Source of the DNA: Candidatus Saccharimonadota bacterium
GTDB taxonomy: Bacteria; Patescibacteriota; Saccharimonadia; CAILAD01; BJGX01
Direction of reading: 5' to 3'
Length of the DNA: 59,019 nt
Assembly: GCA_014191035.1 (NCBI GenBank)
Contig: BJGX01000006.1
Span: 1 to 59,019, forward strand
Each line of letters begins with the position of its first letter. Position 1 is the first letter of the stretch. The notes under the pieces were generated by a model. It saw only the letters and a program-made list of their open reading frames with translations. It ran no database searches and was not told the origin of the DNA. The position numbers were made by a program, and so were the translations under genes. Of this stretch, positions 43,953-52,128 are shown one piece after another.

Positions 43953-45134
43953 TTAGTTGGGTTTAGGTATATTTATTTTAACTGTATCTGGCAATGAATT
44001 CCATATATTCACAAGAAATTCTGATATTTCGGATGAGAAAAGAAAGCCAATTGCAAAATAAGAAATTAAAGCAATAAGGATAATTATAATTAATATCCAA
44101 AAAGCAAAATAGTCACTATCGTGATCTGCATAAAAACTTAATCTAGTCATATGCTTTTCATAATTTTCTAAAGAAGACCAATAACCAACGCTAAAAGCGG
44201 CCCAGCAAGACCACAAAATATAAATTAACGCCGAATATATAGATAAATAGCCAATATTTGTGGCAACGGACTCTGAGTTAATTAATAAATTAATCAATAA
44301 GTACGCCAGATAGGAGCAAAGTAAAGTTATTATTACAAATATTAAAATCCACAAAAAAGATTGTAAAAATGATCTTACTGGATGCTTAAAAGCCTGGCCA
44401 AGAGAAATAGTAAACTTCTTTTTTTGAATGTCCAGACCGATAGCAGATGAGGCTTGTAGAGTAAATCTAAATTTTACATATAGTGTATAGATAATCACTA
44501 TAAAAATACTGCTTAAAATATACAAAGTTATTTGGTTCGTTAAAGAACCGTAGCCCAAAATAAAACTGCAATAAATTAACAAACAAAACATCATAAAGAA
44601 GAATATAAAAACTAATTTTCTTTGTATTTTTGCAAGAACCAATGTCCCTGTGTTTTTTAAAGCTTCATTTATATTTCTAAGTGCAGTCGATTTTCTATGG
44701 TCGATTTTTTGAAAGTTATATCTCATTAAAGCAGAAACAACAAAAGTATCAAATAGCCAGCTGAGGATAAGAAGAACAATAATTGCAAGTCCATAGGCAA
44801 CGAACTGAAAAGTATTTTGTGGTGTTAATATAGACTTAATGCTTGATAAAATTTGATCTGGCTTTAAGACCAATAGATATCTTAATTCGAAATAAACTAA
44901 AGGTATAAAAATAAAAAATAACGGCTTAAAAGAAAAAAGACTTCTTAAAAAAGAAAACATAAAAATCGAGCTATCAAAAATAGTTTTTATCCCATTGAAT
45001 AAGCCAAAACCTAAGCCTATGGTCAATTTCTTGGTTCTTGTGTTTTTTCTATCTTGCCTTGGAACCCGATAAATTTGCTTAGTTTTTTTAGGCTTATTGT
45101 TTTTTGAAATTTTAACAATATCAATATTTCTCAT
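43953..45134 (-). CDS. Polytopic membrane protein of unknown function, downstream of crtB
   Basis: A 393-aa integral membrane protein with a basic 40-residue N-terminus (KKTKQIYRVPRQDRKNTRTKK) and about seven hydrophobic helices; the two long ones near the middle (VLAKIQRKLVFIFFFMMFC and LTNQITLYILSSIFIVIIYTL) flank a polar loop. There is no enzymatic motif that I recognise. It lies 35 bp after crtB on the same strand. It might be a carotenoid transport or membrane-organisation protein, as corynebacterial clusters carry an unrelated transporter, but that is inference from context only. Confidence 0.6.
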   Translation of the reverse strand: MRNIDIVKISKNNKPKKTKQIYRVPRQDRKNTRTKKLTIGLGFGLFNGIKTIFDSSIFMFSFLRSLFSFKPLFFIFIPLVYFELRYLLVLKPDQILSSIKSILTPQNTFQFVAYGLAIIVLLILSWLFDTFVVSALMRYNFQKIDHRKSTALRNINEALKNTGTLVLAKIQRKLVFIFFFMMFCLLIYCSFILGYGSLTNQITLYILSSIFIVIIYTLYVKFRFTLQASSAIGLDIQKKKFTISLGQAFKHPVRSFLQSFLWILIFVIITLLCSYLAYLLINLLINSESVATNIGYLSIYSALIYILWSCWAAFSVGYWSSLENYEKHMTRLSFYADHDSDYFAFWILIIIILIALISYFAIGFLFSSEISEFLVNIWNSLPDTVKINIPKPN

Positions 45135-45169: not shown

Positions 45170-46009
45170 CTAACTAGCCAATGACTTCTTAATTTTAACT
45201 GAAGTAAAGATTCTTATTTTTTGAGATTTGCTCAAACTAATTCTGCCATTTACTAAATCTTGAACTGGCGTTTTAGACATTTGATTGTTTAGGGCTGAAA
45301 AATATTTAAAAGCTAACTCTACACCAAATCGACTTGAGACTGGTAATTTTCTTAGAGCAGGCTTTGCTATTGATAAGTCCTTCTTGATGTCTGTAATTAT
45401 TTCTTTTTTGTCGAGCTCACTAAAGTGGCGAATATTTTTGCCTGGAAAGTATAGGCGTCCAAGCCCTGAAGAATCGGCGTTTAAATCTCTTAAAAAATTT
45501 ATCTTTTGAAAGGCCGCCCCTAAAGCTTTTGCGGCAGGTAAAAGAGAATTGTAGTTTTTCTTATTGCCATTAACAAAAACCATTAAACACATAAGTCCTA
45601 CTACTTCCGCAGAGCCATAAATATAAGTTTTATACTCTTCCAAAGAGTAAGATTTCTTCTTGATATCCATCTTCATACTTCTTAAAAAAGCCTCTACAAG
45701 ATCTAAAGGAATATCGTACTTACGAACAACCGATGCAAAGCTGTGCACTATAGGATTTACACTAAATCCACTCTTAATCGCTCTTTTATAGTCATTGGAC
45801 AGCTCATTGATGTACATTTCCATTCCTCTTGGCCGCCAGCTATCTACTATCTCATCTGCAATTCTAACAAAGCCATAAATTGCATATATCGAATCTGCCA
45901 CTTCAGGACTTAAAAGACTAGTGGCCGAAGAAAAAGAACTCGAATATGTCTCAGTAATATCTTTGCTGACTTTCAAACTTATTTTTTCATAGAGCTGAAT
46001 ATTTAACAT
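45170..46009 (-). CDS. crtB: Phytoene synthase CrtB
   Basis: A 279-aa head-to-head prenyl synthase that joins two GGPP into phytoene. Aspartate-rich motifs are in FVRIADEIVDS and NFLRDLNADSSGLGRLYFPG, and GSAEVVGLMCLMVF is the squalene/phytoene synthase signature. The start is 1 nt after the crtE stop. The sequence is compact (usual 290-310 aa) but complete. It sits third in the crtI-crtE-crtB unit. Confidence 0.94.
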   Translation of the reverse strand: MLNIQLYEKISLKVSKDITETYSSSFSSATSLLSPEVADSIYAIYGFVRIADEIVDSWRPRGMEMYINELSNDYKRAIKSGFSVNPIVHSFASVVRKYDIPLDLVEAFLRSMKMDIKKKSYSLEEYKTYIYGSAEVVGLMCLMVFVNGNKKNYNSLLPAAKALGAAFQKINFLRDLNADSSGLGRLYFPGKNIRHFSELDKKEIITDIKKDLSIAKPALRKLPVSSRFGVELAFKYFSALNNQMSKTPVQDLVNGRISLSKSQKIRIFTSVKIKKSLAS

Positions 46010-46010
46010 T

Positions 46011-47108
46011 TTATTTCTTCCTTACAACGCAGTAATGAGAAAACGCAATTAAGATTGATTTTGTATCTTTATCTATTTGCATCTCATCAATAATCCCGAG
46101 GGCCTTTTGCAGATGATCTTCCGCAGCCACCACTGCTTTAGCTTGAGCCCCACATTCTTTAAGTATTGAGCGCACTAACTTAACGTCATCTGCGGAAATG
46201 TGTTCTTTACCCAACCTAGTGCTTATAGCCTTCCATTCCAGCGGAGAGGCCAGCTTCTTAGCATAGTACATTAATAAAGTCTGTTTTCCTTCACGAATAT
46301 CTGATCCAACTGGCTTGCCGGTTTGTCTTGAAGAGCCAAACATACCTAATAGGTCGTCGGCTATCTGAAAAGCCTTACCTAATTCGGCCCCAAAATCAGC
46401 GAAGGTGTTCATTAGTTTTTTGTCCCCTTCGGCAGCGATTACGCCAAGCTGCAAGGGTGAGGTTACAGTGTATTGTGCAGTTTTATAATAATTAACTTTT
46501 TCTATTTTGTTTAAATTTAAATCTCCTCTTATGCTAGACATTACATCGAGCTGCTGGCCAGCACCTGTTTCAAATAGAACTTTTTGGAAATGCGCCATCA
46601 TTTCAAAAATAACCTCTTTTTCGAAATCAAGCTTTGTTAGTACCTCAAAAGTAAAAAATTCATTTAGCTCCCCCGCCAATATAGCTATTGCTTCGGCGGT
46701 GTGCCTGGCATTATTTTCAGGTAATTGCTTTTTGAATCTTTTGAAATAAACGCCTGTCATATTAGCGCCACCATAGCGAGTCATGTCTCCATCCATAACA
46801 TCATCGTGTATTAAGACAAAGTTATGAAAAATCTCTAAAGACAGGGAGGCGTCTAGGGCCGCCTCAAAATCTGTTCCTCCTGCCGCCTTATATCCCAAGA
46901 GCATTAATGTTGGCCTTAGTCTTTTGCCACCTCTTTGAATAAACTTTTTCATATCCAATAAAAGTTTTTCGTAGATGGGGTCAATTTTTTTAGCCTCAGC
47001 AATCTTAAGGTTAAAAAACTTCTCTAGCCTTTTATCTATCTCTTTGGATACGTAGTTGTTGAGCTCTGTTAGCTCACGTAAATTTTTAATTTCGTTATTA
47101 TTTTGCAT
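46011..47108 (-). CDS. crtE: Geranylgeranyl diphosphate synthase-type polyprenyl synthetase
   Basis: A 365-aa trans-isoprenyl diphosphate synthase. The first aspartate-rich motif is VLIHDDVMDGD (DDxxD) and the second is FQIADDLLGMFG (DDLLG in place of DDILD). KRLRPTLMLLGYKAAGG is the IPP-binding region. Context between crtI and crtB makes GGPP the likely product, although chain length cannot be read off safely. It overlaps crtI by 11 nt. IPP/DMAPP synthesis genes are not in the window. Confidence 0.9.
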   Translation of the reverse strand: MQNNNEIKNLRELTELNNYVSKEIDKRLEKFFNLKIAEAKKIDPIYEKLLLDMKKFIQRGGKRLRPTLMLLGYKAAGGTDFEAALDASLSLEIFHNFVLIHDDVMDGDMTRYGGANMTGVYFKRFKKQLPENNARHTAEAIAILAGELNEFFTFEVLTKLDFEKEVIFEMMAHFQKVLFETGAGQQLDVMSSIRGDLNLNKIEKVNYYKTAQYTVTSPLQLGVIAAEGDKKLMNTFADFGAELGKAFQIADDLLGMFGSSRQTGKPVGSDIREGKQTLLMYYAKKLASPLEWKAISTRLGKEHISADDVKLVRSILKECGAQAKAVVAAEDHLQKALGIIDEMQIDKDTKSILIAFSHYCVVRKK

Positions 47109-48612
47109 CGCTTAATATTCTCTCGGTAACTAACTTGGCACTCAAAGTTACCATAGGTATTCCTCCACCTGGGTAAGTGCTTGCGCCTACAAAGTAAAGA
47201 TTCTTTATATCCTTGCTTTTGTTATGGGGCCTAAAATATCCGGACTGAAAAAAGTGATGACTGAGCCCAAAAGCGGAACCTACGTGTAGGTTATATTTCT
47301 TTTTAAAATCTTCAGGTGTAAATACTGATTCGACCTTAATTTTCTTCTCTATATCTAAATCAAACTCTGTCTTAAGTCTTGAAATAACCTGCTTTTTAAG
47401 TCTTTTAATGCCTTTTTCCCAATTAACTTTTGAGTCAAGATTTGGAACAGGCACTAGGACATAAAATACGCTCTTTCCTTTTGGAGCCAATGTTGGATCA
47501 GTCTTTGTGGGAATATAAGTGTAAAAAGAAGGGTCTTTGGGTAGTTTTTTCTTATGAAATATTTCTTCTAAATTACCCTTAAAATCTTTACATAAATACA
47601 CATTATGATGCAGCATCTGTTCGCATGGGTCATCGACACCCCAATAAAATAGTAGAGCAGAACTTGCTTGCTTGTAATTTTCTAATTTCTGGTTAGGTGA
47701 TGAGGGTCGATGTTTTTCGGCGATTAGTTCTTTTTGTGCATAGACCAAGTCTGCGTTAGCAACTATGGTATTTGCGCTAACTACTCTACCCTTTTTTAAT
47801 CTTACGCCAACTGCTTTTTTGTCTTTAATAATTATTTCCTCTACAGATGAAGAGGTTAAAATTTCACCACCCAAATCCTTTACGAGCTTTTCCATGGCCA
47901 TCGAAAGAGAGTACATGCCTCCTTTTGGATACCAAATACCCAGCCCCGTCTCCATATAGCTAACCATACTGTAGACCGCGGGGGCTTCATGTGGACTAAC
48001 TCCCAAATACATACTCTGGAAGCTAAATAGCTGCCTTAATCTTTCATCTTTAAAATAATAAGCCACAAAATCATACAACTTACTCAAACCCCTTCTCTTA
48101 AGAAGTTGAGCACCGCTTACAGGATTAATAAAGTCTGTTATACGTCTAAAGTTTCTATCTATAAAACTTTTTCTTGAAATCCTATACATTGCCGAAACAT
48201 CAGAGAAAAACTTAAAAAACTGCTCTGGTCCCTTTGGATCAAACTTTTCTAGTTCTGAGCTAAACTTTGGAAGATTACTGCTTACTGTAATTTTAGTTTT
48301 GTCTGCAAAGGCGACTCTGTAGTTTGGTTCCAATTGAAGAAGGGTGATGTAATCATCGAAATTTTTGCCACAATATTTGAATGTGTCATATAGAACATCT
48401 GTCATCATCAGTAGAGTTGGGCCCATATCGAAAGTGTAGCCTTTCTTTTCAATGCGGTTGGCTCTACCGCCCACTTTGTCTTCTTTTTCTATAACGGTAA
48501 CTTTGTACCCATTCTTAAGAAGTCTCGCAGCAGTACAAAGACCACCAATGCCACCTCCGACAATTATTGCAGATTTTTGTGAATTATTTTCCATAGATTT
48601 ATAAACTATCAT
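47098..48612 (-). CDS. crtI: Phytoene desaturase CrtI
   Basis: About 504 aa (ATG at 48594 giving MENNSQKS is an equally good or better start). The FAD-binding dinucleotide fold reads AIIVGGGIGGLCTAARLLKNGYKVTVIEKEDKVGGR, and the C-terminal FYFVGASTYPGGGIPMV-like end (NLYFVGASTYPGGGIPMV) is the CrtI hallmark. It desaturates phytoene, probably to lycopene. It is divergent from crtYc with overlapping promoters; leader very short. Confidence 0.95.
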   Translation of the reverse strand: MIVYKSMENNSQKSAIIVGGGIGGLCTAARLLKNGYKVTVIEKEDKVGGRANRIEKKGYTFDMGPTLLMMTDVLYDTFKYCGKNFDDYITLLQLEPNYRVAFADKTKITVSSNLPKFSSELEKFDPKGPEQFFKFFSDVSAMYRISRKSFIDRNFRRITDFINPVSGAQLLKRRGLSKLYDFVAYYFKDERLRQLFSFQSMYLGVSPHEAPAVYSMVSYMETGLGIWYPKGGMYSLSMAMEKLVKDLGGEILTSSSVEEIIIKDKKAVGVRLKKGRVVSANTIVANADLVYAQKELIAEKHRPSSPNQKLENYKQASSALLFYWGVDDPCEQMLHHNVYLCKDFKGNLEEIFHKKKLPKDPSFYTYIPTKTDPTLAPKGKSVFYVLVPVPNLDSKVNWEKGIKRLKKQVISRLKTEFDLDIEKKIKVESVFTPEDFKKKYNLHVGSAFGLSHHFFQSGYFRPHNKSKDIKNLYFVGASTYPGGGIPMVTLSAKLVTERILSDAK

Positions 48613-48623: not shown

Positions 48624-48938
48624 GTGAAATACACCTATTTGACCATACTTATTTTTAGCATAGTCGGCATGACGCTTTTAGATTATAAATATAAGCTGTC
48701 ATTTTTCAAGTACCCAAGGGCTGCTTTCAAGAGTACCCTAATAGTAATGTCCTTGCTTTTATTTGCCGATATTGTAGGTATAAATTGGAAAATATTTTCT
48801 ACTAATACTCGATACGTGTCAGGACTATTTATTGGTAGCGAAAATCTCCCTATTGAAGAATTCTTCTTTCTATTTATGTTGTGCTATTTTACTCTGAACA
48901 TTTATCAGATTTTAAAAAGAAAGTATCTAGATGTTTAA
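48624..48938 (+). CDS. crtYc: Lycopene cyclase subunit, CrtYc/CrtYe type
   Basis: 104 aa with three hydrophobic helices. The family signature is in GLFIGSENLPIEEFFFLFMLCYFTL (P-x-E-E). Heterodimeric cyclases of Actinobacteria comprise two such proteins: CrtYc and CrtYd for C40, CrtYe and CrtYf for C50. Because a lycopene elongase is encoded next, the C50 cyclase role is likely. It starts at GTG with no Shine-Dalgarno sequence and overlaps crtYd by 8 nt. Confidence 0.85.
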   Translation: MKYTYLTILIFSIVGMTLLDYKYKLSFFKYPRAAFKSTLIVMSLLLFADIVGINWKIFSTNTRYVSGLFIGSENLPIEEFFFLFMLCYFTLNIYQILKRKYLDV

Positions 48939-49254
48939 GTATAGTTTTTTAATAATCATGCTTTTATTCATTGCTTTTTTTGTGGGCTATATTTATAAAC
49001 TAAAATTAAACCTTAATAAAGCCTGGCGCTACACCGCGCTCATAAGTTTTGTTGCTATGATTATTTTTAATACCTACCTTACTGCCCTTCCGATAGTGGT
49101 GTATAATGTTAACTCAATTCTGGGAATTAAAATATTAACATTTCCTATTGAAGATATAGGATATTTAATAATGGTATTGCTACTGCTCCCGCCATTGTTC
49201 GAAAAGTTATCAGATGAAAAAAGAGACCACCCACAAAAACCGACCAAACATTAA
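48931..49254 (+). CDS. crtYd: Lycopene cyclase subunit, CrtYd/CrtYf type
   Basis: 107 aa with three hydrophobic helices. The signature IFNTYLTALPIVVYN matches the CrtYd-type FDNYLTALPIVxYD, and FPIEDIGYLIMVLLLL carries the P-x-E-D motif. It would form the cyclase with CrtYc. It overlaps crtYc by 8 nt and the following fusion gene by 41 nt, so all three are translationally coupled. Confidence 0.85.
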   Translation: MFKYSFLIIMLLFIAFFVGYIYKLKLNLNKAWRYTALISFVAMIIFNTYLTALPIVVYNVNSILGIKILTFPIEDIGYLIMVLLLLPPLFEKLSDEKRDHPQKPTKH

Positions 49255-51229
49255 AGAGGTGCTTGCCACTTCAAGGCCATTTAGCTGGCTAAATACGGCT
49301 GTCCCCTTCTTTGTTGGTTTTGTAATCTCATTTGGAGGTATTAATCTAGCGTGCATTCTGGCAACAGCCTACTTTACATTCTTCTATAATTATTTGATGT
49401 ATGGTGTAAATGATATATTTGACTACGAATCAGATATAAAAAACCCTCGCAAAAACTCAATTGAGGGGGGGCTGGTCGACAAGAGCAAACACAAGTTCAT
49501 GTTCTATTTAATTGTGTTCTCAAATTTACCTTTTGTGTTATACCTTTTGTGGAGTGGTAATCTTCAAAGCAATATAACACTTATAGCAATTATATTTTTT
49601 GCTTTCAGCTATTCTGCCAAGCCATTTCGTTTTAAGGAAGTGCCAATCCTTGATTCCATAAACTCCAGCCTTCACTTCGTCTTGCCATTGGTCTTTGGTG
49701 TTTTCTATGCCGGAAGTACAGCCTTACCGTGGCCTGCAGTGGTAGCATTTTTCTTCTGGGGCGCCGCATCCCAAGCCTTAGGAGCTATTCCAGATATAAA
49801 ACCTGATAGAGCCGCAAATATAAACTCTATAGCAACAAAATTAGGAGCGAAGTTTACCAATAGTTATTCTTTATTGCTCTATACTTTATGCTGCATTATA
49901 GTGGCTGTTTTTTATTACCCATGGGGACTTTTAGCCGCTGTGATTCTTGCGGTATACCCATTAAATGTCTTGTTTTTTAGAAAATATAAGTCTGATGCCA
50001 AAAGCCCAGAGTATCAGAGAGCCTGGAAAAATTTTATTTGGCTGAATTTGATAGTTGGCTTTTGGCTAAGCCAGCTTTTGCTTTTTATATATGACCCTTT
50101 TGGATTAGGGCTAAAGCGAGTTGGTTTTTTTGCAGGATTTTTAGTAACTTTTGGCTTAGCACAATTGATGCTTATAGTTTATAATTACCAAAAATTTTCT
50201 AGACCCAAGTCAAAGAGATTGGGCGACTTGCCGCATATAGACATAATAATGCATTCAATAGGAAATAAAGATAATATAGCCTCAACCTTCTTGGCATTGA
50301 TTGGTCAAAACTATCCAAATTTTGACATATATTATGCAAATCTAGACCGCAACCCTTCTGCTCAAAAAATAGCTGAAAGCTATCAAGATCCAAGGCTACA
50401 CATTATTGACATTCCAAAGCCCGAAAAAGGATGGAGCCTACAAGCTTGGGCGAGCCAGAGACTATTGAAAAAAACTAAATCCAACCTAGTTGTTTTAATT
50501 GGTGCTGATACGTTACTTTTACCAAACACGTTATCTGTTATAGCCAGTATGTTTGATTCAAAAAAACTAGAATTTGCATCCCTTCTGCCAGCCGATCAAA
50601 ACAAATCCTTCTGGCAACAATTAATTATGAGCCAAGAACATTATTTTCTTTTTGGTCTATACCCATCGGCCTATATAACTAACAAAAAGCCACTTCTGGC
50701 CACAGCATTCAGTAGTCTTATTGCCTTTAGAAAGAGTTCAATTAAAAAAATTGGCGACTTTGAAATTGTCAAAAAAAGTCCACTTGAAGATTTGGATATA
50801 GCAAACAAAGCCAAGCAAAATGGCTTGGTATCTGAGTTTTATTCAGCTAGTGATTTAGCTGTTAGCCAAAACCGCTCTGAGCTTGGCCAATTAAGAGAAT
50901 ATAATGAACAAAGACTCTATCCTAGTCTACATTTTAATATGCCCGCCAGTATAACGATTGTTTCTTTGGGAATATTTATAACAATTTTTCCGGTTGTTTT
51001 GCTTTGTTCTTTACTGCTTTTAGGAATTTATGAAGGAACCCTGCTACTTGCTATTGGTTGTGGCATACTCTTATTAAACAGGTTCATAATTATGTCAAAA
51101 TCCAAGCAAAGTATTACTAGCACGCTGCTATACCCGATTGGTAGCCTTATATTAATTCTTGAAATATTTTCTTCGATGCTAAATTACGAAATGAAGAAGC
51201 CTCGCTGGGAAAAGCGCAGGGAGATATAA
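49214..51229 (+). CDS. crtEb: Fused lycopene elongase (UbiA/CrtEb) and membrane GT2 glycosyltransferase
   Basis: 671 aa. Residues about 1-300 are a UbiA-family prenyltransferase with eight or so helices, starting SRPFSWLNTAVPF as in CrtEb. The metal-binding motifs are NDIFDYESD (Asn66 to Asp74) and DIKPD (Asp194 to Asp198). It would add C5 units to lycopene to make C50 flavuxanthin-type carotenoid. From about 335 comes a GT2 domain: HIDIIMHSIGNKDN, VVLIGADTLLLPNTL and SPLEDLDIA, then three C-terminal helices. This resembles carotenoid glycosyltransferases (CrtX/CrtQ). The fused order suggests C50 carotenoid glycosylation. It overlaps crtYd by 41 nt. Confidence 0.86.
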   Translation: MKKETTHKNRPNIKEVLATSRPFSWLNTAVPFFVGFVISFGGINLACILATAYFTFFYNYLMYGVNDIFDYESDIKNPRKNSIEGGLVDKSKHKFMFYLIVFSNLPFVLYLLWSGNLQSNITLIAIIFFAFSYSAKPFRFKEVPILDSINSSLHFVLPLVFGVFYAGSTALPWPAVVAFFFWGAASQALGAIPDIKPDRAANINSIATKLGAKFTNSYSLLLYTLCCIIVAVFYYPWGLLAAVILAVYPLNVLFFRKYKSDAKSPEYQRAWKNFIWLNLIVGFWLSQLLLFIYDPFGLGLKRVGFFAGFLVTFGLAQLMLIVYNYQKFSRPKSKRLGDLPHIDIIMHSIGNKDNIASTFLALIGQNYPNFDIYYANLDRNPSAQKIAESYQDPRLHIIDIPKPEKGWSLQAWASQRLLKKTKSNLVVLIGADTLLLPNTLSVIASMFDSKKLEFASLLPADQNKSFWQQLIMSQEHYFLFGLYPSAYITNKKPLLATAFSSLIAFRKSSIKKIGDFEIVKKSPLEDLDIANKAKQNGLVSEFYSASDLAVSQNRSELGQLREYNEQRLYPSLHFNMPASITIVSLGIFITIFPVVLLCSLLLLGIYEGTLLLAIGCGILLLNRFIIMSKSKQSITSTLLYPIGSLILILEIFSSMLNYEMKKPRWEKRREI

Positions 51230-52090
51230 TCACTTTTTATTCTTTTTCTTGAGATGCTTATCTCTACCCCTAAAAACTGCCTTGCTTATAAAAACGCCGG
51301 CCAAGCTAGCAGCTGAAATGATTGCAAAAATAGTAAATGTATCCCTAGCGATGGTAAGCAAAAGCTTTGTTAGGAGTTGAAAATTATCTATGCCGCTGGA
51401 AGATGCTATATCCAAGCCGATACTGGTAGATGCAAAACTTGATCCTAGTGCAATTATAATCCCAAAAACAGATCCAATAAGAATTGGCACTAAGATACGG
51501 TTGATTTTTTTACTACCCGAGCGAAGGTTTAACAAAAACAATAAAGCTATTGTTGATCCAAGTACCAGCCAGAGATAAGGAATAAGTTGTTCTAGTGATC
51601 TATACAATTCCTTTACTCTTAAAAGCTGAGGGAGAATATTACTTTCATCTTTCGAATCATCAAGCAGAATAAAACTATCTGGTAACAGTCTAGTGATTTC
51701 AAATCTTACTTGATTGTCGGTGGTCTTTAGGCTCACCTTATTTTTTATGGGAAGTAAATCTAAATCAACATTCAAGCTGTCTTGTTTATTATTAAGCCAC
51801 TCCAAGAGTACAATTTGAGCTGGCTGAATAACCGATTTAGCCACGTCGGAATTGACCGTAGTTGAAATACTATTCTTGATGGCTTCATTAAGTAGCGAAT
51901 TCGAAGAGCTTACCTGTTTGTTTAACTCTTCAGCCATTAACTTAGAGGAGGCTTCATAAAAACCTGATTCATCCAATACTTTAGTTAGTTTCTGGTTTGA
52001 AGAAAATACTCCTACTATACTTATAGAGTAGACCAGGCATAAAAAGACTATCAACAGAATGGCCTGTAATATTTTATTAATAAACTTCAT
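51230..52090 (-). CDS. Membrane protein of unknown function with large exterior loop
   Basis: About 286 aa. One N-terminal membrane helix (about 5-28) is followed by an external segment of about 130 residues, then helices at about 171-190, 200-220 and 240-265, and a basic tail. No recognisable motif. The ATG at 52090 is chosen over GTG 52093. Its stop lies directly against the stop of the UbiA/GT fusion on the other strand. It is not obviously part of the carotenoid pathway. Confidence 0.55.
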   Translation of the reverse strand: MKFINKILQAILLIVFLCLVYSISIVGVFSSNQKLTKVLDESGFYEASSKLMAEELNKQVSSSNSLLNEAIKNSISTTVNSDVAKSVIQPAQIVLLEWLNNKQDSLNVDLDLLPIKNKVSLKTTDNQVRFEITRLLPDSFILLDDSKDESNILPQLLRVKELYRSLEQLIPYLWLVLGSTIALLFLLNLRSGSKKINRILVPILIGSVFGIIIALGSSFASTSIGLDIASSSGIDNFQLLTKLLLTIARDTFTIFAIISAASLAGVFISKAVFRGRDKHLKKKNKK

Positions 52091-52128
52091 CACTTATATG
52101 TTACCAAAAAATAAGTATAATTACTCAA

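Follow-up and report, generated by a model that had tools for sequence, protein, structure and literature searches.

The window, that is, the whole stretch of 59,019 nucleotides that was analysed, belongs to an order of uncultured, tiny Saccharibacteria, of which 17 genomes were compared, and it carries a compact carotenoid gene cluster (Table 1). Judged by sequence, its crtE, crtB, crtI, crtYe and crtYf genes match the set used to make cyclic C50 carotenoids, a group that includes decaprenoxanthin, sarcinaxanthin and C.p. 450 (PMC3598387). Beside them, a single open reading frame (ORF) without internal stop joins, in frame, an elongase to a family 2 glycosyltransferase (GT2). The two flanking membrane-protein genes remain beside the fusion gene where the crt genes have been lost. 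A CruF-family (PF04240) gene of the same genome lies on another contig (L109:7866-8696, G000:C9); within the order this family occurs in 10 of the 17 genomes, among them G002, G007 and G008, in which crtI and crtB were not found.

Table 1. Genes, domains and sequence motifs at the locus (positions in the window; residue numbers of the fusion protein)
Feature	Position	Strand	Basis or remark
Membrane protein, no Pfam match, beside the cluster	43953..45134	-	Homologue lies right next to the fusion gene in G012/G002
crtB-type phytoene synthase	45170..46009	-	Pfam SQS_PSY, E 5e-38
crtE-type prenyl diphosphate synthase	46011..47108	-	Pfam polyprenyl_synt, E 4e-50
crtI-type phytoene desaturase, divergent	47098..48612	-	TIGR02734, 515.6 bits (cut-off 238)
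crtYe-type C50 cyclase subunit	48624..48938	+	TIGR03462, 53.9 bits (cut-off 39.4)
crtYf-type C50 cyclase subunit, 41 bp overlap with fusion gene	48931..49254	+	Pfam Lycopene_cyc, 44.6 bits (cut-off 27)
Fusion gene joining a CrtEb/LbtBC-type lycopene elongase (UbiA) to a membrane GT2	49214..51229	+	671 aa; Pfam, NCBIfam, AlphaFold2
UbiA/CrtEb elongase domain, residues 10-292, nine predicted membrane helices	49241..50089	+	PRK13105, model
First Asp motif NDIFDYESD, residues 66-74 (N66, D67, D70, D74)	49409..49435	+	Lost in L010/L011 only
Second Asp motif DIKPD, residues 194-198 (D194, D198)	49793..49807	+	SIKVD in L010/L011
Helix 301-327, N-terminal membrane anchor of GT2	50114..50194	+	AlphaFold2 model
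GT-A catalytic domain, residues 342-551	50237..50866	+	Pfam, model, Foldseek
GT2 'DD' nucleotide motif site, here Asn376-Leu377	50339..50344	+	Motif comparison
Gln410 in place of Lys/Arg of unfused relatives	50441..50443	+	Motif comparison
Asp432, last Asp of the DXD position	50507..50509	+	Invariant in 14 fused copies
Glu525-Asp526 (LED), catalytic base position	50786..50791	+	D, E or N at 526 among 14 copies
Interface helix and three C-terminal helices, residues 557-661	50882..51196	+	AlphaFold2 model
Membrane protein, no Pfam match	51230..52093	-	Flanks the fusion gene in several relatives

The initial annotation had described one ORF in which a UbiA/CrtEb-like domain is followed by a GT2 domain with three C-terminal helices, and this description was confirmed by Pfam, NCBIfam and AlphaFold2. 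The domain search that it had proposed found both domains, with UbiA covering residues 30-276 (E 6.6e-28) and Glycos_transf_2 covering residues 344-513 (E 2.1e-7). The AlphaFold2 model of the fusion protein, built with 14 relatives as input, reached a pLDDT of 85.7 and a pTM of 0.82, and its layout runs from nine UbiA helices through the helix 301-327, the GT-A domain (342-551) and an interface helix to the three C-terminal helices. By using the GT half as a Foldseek query, matches to BcsA, hyaluronan synthase and PcManGT were obtained, and the GT2 (GT-A) class is indicated by the Pfam match and the GT-A fold together. The helix count suggests that both catalytic sites are located on the cytosolic face.

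The assignment of the N-terminal half as a lycopene elongase of the CrtEb/LbtBC type is well supported. The NCBIfam model PRK13105 matches residues 10-292 with 294.1 bits, above its cut-off of 217, and the two Asp-rich UbiA motifs, described at the outset as intact at residues 66-74 and 194-198, are in place as NDIFDYESD and DIKPD. Together with the crtYe-crtYf-crtI-crtE-crtB neighbourhood, these observations bear out the elongase identity first proposed.

A protein search of 99 relatives, extended to the whole order, revealed the two-domain ORF in 14 of the 17 genomes, the window's own included; the other fused copies are 41-70% identical to the window protein, and all are free of stops. In the other families of the class, crtEb is a separate gene, found downstream of crtYe-crtYf at most loci. 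A search for the same architecture across CPR genomes, also suggested initially, succeeded within the order but gave nothing further in a phylum sample of 287 genomes, where only 22 had any elongase-family match and none of these 22 carried another UbiA and GT2 ORF. On plasmids, no fused copy was found by tblastn. When 295 genomes of the class were searched with the GT half, scores above 560 bits were obtained solely for the 14 fused copies and the runner-up reached 94 bits, so that by these scores the GT half appears to be without a close unfused relative there. Since the fusion is order-wide and such scores are confined to fused copies, it is a long-standing feature of this order. The fused copies were not resolved as a single clade in the elongase tree (one or two label changes), and therefore a single origin is likely, but not proven.

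Other elongase loci were recorded in the course of these searches. In another CPR family, a 571-aa ORF (L059:7227-8939, G136) joins a crtB phytoene synthase to a crtEb elongase and adjoins crtI. A second crtI-crtEb pair (L069:5412-7849, G005:C10) has an elongase at a tree distance of about 0.13 from that of G068, a member of another family, which suggests horizontal transfer. An Arthrobacter plasmid (L076:7659-8855), for which no gene is listed at that place in the plasmid table, carries a cyclase subunit fused to an elongase that clusters in the tree with stand-alone copies of the class.

The GT half had been called carotenoid-type, and its lipid/carotenoid-type character was supported. All 14 copies match HpnB and CruG, the latter being the carotenoid 2'-O-glycosyltransferase of NCBIfam, and the best GT matches on plasmids (tblastn) belong to carotenoid gene clusters of Thermus, Gluconobacter and Palleronia, whose GTs align with the GT half over their full length, including the C-terminal W-(R/K)-x-R. 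The scores of the window GT half are far under the equivalog cut-offs (72.5 against 379 for HpnB and 19.8 against 600 for CruG), and the HpnB score is 59-73 bits in the window's clade compared with 80-116 in the other copies scored. By homology, the GT half appears nearest to lipid/carotenoid GTs such as HpnB and CruG, yet it is no clean member of either family.

Its nucleotide site was compared between the 14 fused copies and 23 unfused rows, which represent 21 distinct loci. At the DD site, D-D stands in all 21 distinct unfused GT2s, whereas D-L is found in nine fused relatives and N-L in the window's clade of five; likewise, the Lys/Arg after DD is present in all 21 and absent from all 14 fused copies. 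In the window GT, the nucleotide-binding Asp pair and the Lys/Arg are replaced by N376-L377 and Q410. These changes would be compatible with a changed donor or with lost catalysis, and they speak for an alternative in which the GT2 half has ceased to work as a nucleotide-sugar transferase (being a pseudo-enzyme or having a strongly altered donor) and forms a conserved scaffold in the membrane or a lipid- or carotenoid-binding module on the elongase. The variable residue at the base position (D, E or N) and the lower HpnB scores of the window's clade, in which the first Asp has become Asn, point in the same direction. The first DXD Asp is also lost in the fused family, but this was rejected as proof of a dead GT because unfused relatives show the same loss and it is not diagnostic. 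The last DXD Asp and most conserved GT positions have been kept even where the elongase decays, as described below, and we consider this alternative somewhat unlikely.

Such decay was found in two genomes, G012 and G002 (both 93% complete), which count as one evolutionary event and have kept the fusion, with no match to crtI, crtB or a cyclase. The flanking membrane gene lies immediately next to the fusion on the contigs of both genomes, and thus the block crtB-crtE-crtI-crtYe-crtYf is gone from that place. Their elongase halves (L010 and L011) carry DSICEDKYN and SIKVD where the Asp motifs should stand, and score 180 and 168 bits with PRK13105, under the cut-off of 217. Of the positions that do not vary among the remaining 12 copies, 20 of 68 are changed in the elongase half of L010/L011, as against 2 of 47 in the GT half, where 45 are retained (p = 0.0006). 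This conserved-site test was used because the nonsynonymous/synonymous changes between G012 and G002 number 14/9 for the elongase and 5/13 for the GT, a contrast that alone reached only p = 0.058. As the GT was preserved after the Asp motifs and the pathway had been lost, it seems to be selected for even without home-made carotenoids, which argues for a function that may go beyond capping the cell's own C50 product. In G013 (87% complete) the fusion is likewise kept and its elongase motifs are intact, but neither crtI nor crtB nor a cyclase was found; MAG gaps may account for the missing genes. In G014 the crtI gene is in pieces (L111, G014:C9:12361-13493), running across several frames with its middle missing, and the crtB and fusion genes beside it look intact.

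These genomes, with the fusion retained, the pathway genes unmatched or broken and, in G012/G002, the elongase motifs gone and the membrane gene directly adjoining the fusion, lend themselves to a second alternative, in which the main acceptor of the GT would have nothing to do with the C50 carotenoid that the cell itself makes and would be a membrane or host-derived lipid, the elongase being chiefly an attached partner that can be lost. This we regard as unlikely, since 11 of the 14 fusion-bearing genomes have cyclase genes, adjacent to the fusion in most, G012 and G002 count as a single event, and G013 may be incomplete. That two genes were joined by an assembly error or a frameshift can be dismissed almost with certainty, because, apart from the unusual architecture, nothing favours it, and the occurrence of the same stop-free ORF in 14 genomes, on separate contigs of separate assemblies, refutes a chimera.

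The reading that we adopt, with moderate confidence, is that of a bifunctional membrane enzyme of the C50 carotenoid pathway, combining elongase and glycosyltransferase. The elongase half would put hydroxylated C5 units onto lycopene, CrtYe and CrtYf would then cyclise the ends of the elongated carotenoid, and the GT half would glycosylate the terminal hydroxyls on the same membrane face. This is favoured by the families scoring above cut-off, the motifs, the order-wide conservation without stops, the crt neighbourhood and the membrane GT-A model, and further by the HpnB/CruG matches, the alignment with GTs of carotenoid clusters and the constrained GT half of L010/L011. Against it stand the lost DD and Lys/Arg, the low HpnB and CruG scores and the survival of the GT beyond the pathway in G012/G002. 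Homology and context favour the putative GT role, and the altered nucleotide motif weakens the case for it. The idea of the initial annotation that the fusion lets the hydroxylated product pass straight to glycosylation was not supported as worded: the separate CrtYe/CrtYf would act on the same product, and the altered nucleotide residues and a GT kept in two relatives without the elongase's catalytic Asp residues and without the pathway also speak against direct hand-over.

Under the adopted reading, the GT half, whose donor pocket is changed, must also be of use where the home pathway is missing, the simplest use being the glycosylation of hydroxy-carotenoids, or of a similar lipid, from outside. 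A tentative proposal follows these lines: the GT half might carry the selected function, the elongase might turn into a catalytically dead membrane partner once carotenoid synthesis stops, and a rewired GT might modify host carotenoids or lipids. Saccharibacteria have been proposed to obtain retinal from actinobacterial hosts (PMC9296517), and scavenged carotenoids could be a similar case. In the window genome (G000, 93.6% complete), LytB, HMG-CoA reductase and type 2 IPP isomerase were not found despite the complete carotenoid genes, so the isoprenoid precursor may be supplied by the host. PF01036 (rhodopsin), which would point to an antenna role, had no match in the order, and its control was likewise without a match anywhere. 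If the adopted reading is true, the locus represents a naturally occurring fusion of elongase and glycosyltransferase for C50 carotenoids, present in bacteria that are reduced and probably depend on a host. The lineage in which one half decays and the other is preserved amounts, in addition, to a natural experiment in which the two functions come apart, so that the role of the GT is directly testable.

The initial view that no enzyme of this architecture had been described was supported, as no elongase-GT fusion was found in the open-licence literature searched. Elongase fusion as such is not new, since in Dietzia the LbtBC protein joins a cyclase subunit to the elongase (PMC6669644). Dietzia LbtBC and the Arthrobacter protein of L076 resemble the window protein in that a second enzyme of the pathway is attached to the elongase; they differ in the partner, which is an N-terminal cyclase subunit there and a C-terminal GT here, crtYf being an ORF of its own in the window. 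In Dietzia crtX is a separate gene (PMC6669644), and in Corynebacterium the glucosylation enzyme for C50 carotenoids was still unknown in 2012 (PMC3598387). Membrane GT2s of the HpnB, CruG and CrtX-like types, which act on hopanoids and carotenoids, are like the GT half end to end, with an N-terminal helix, GT-A and three C-terminal helices, whereas the fused copies lack DD and Lys/Arg, fall far under the equivalog cut-offs and are joined to an elongase. A related published case is Baikal-deep-G192 (L001/L008), whose fusion is 70% identical to that of the window. Its C50 genes were reported, in the available text of that article, as bacterioruberin genes, with lyeJ, crtD and cruF named (PMC9948471); in the same text 'glycosyl' does not occur and no glycosyltransferase is named (PMC9948471). 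In contrast to that label, the locus has crtYe/crtYf, pointing to a cyclic C50 product. Actinobacterial CrtEb, CrtE2 and LbtBC share with the window protein a UbiA domain that exceeds the cut-off of PRK13105, the two Asp motifs and crtYe/crtYf/crtI/crtB/crtE neighbours, and the identity to an Arthrobacter copy is 38.6%; the window copy differs in bearing a whole GT2 at its C-terminus and in residing in a Saccharibacteria-type CPR bacterium.
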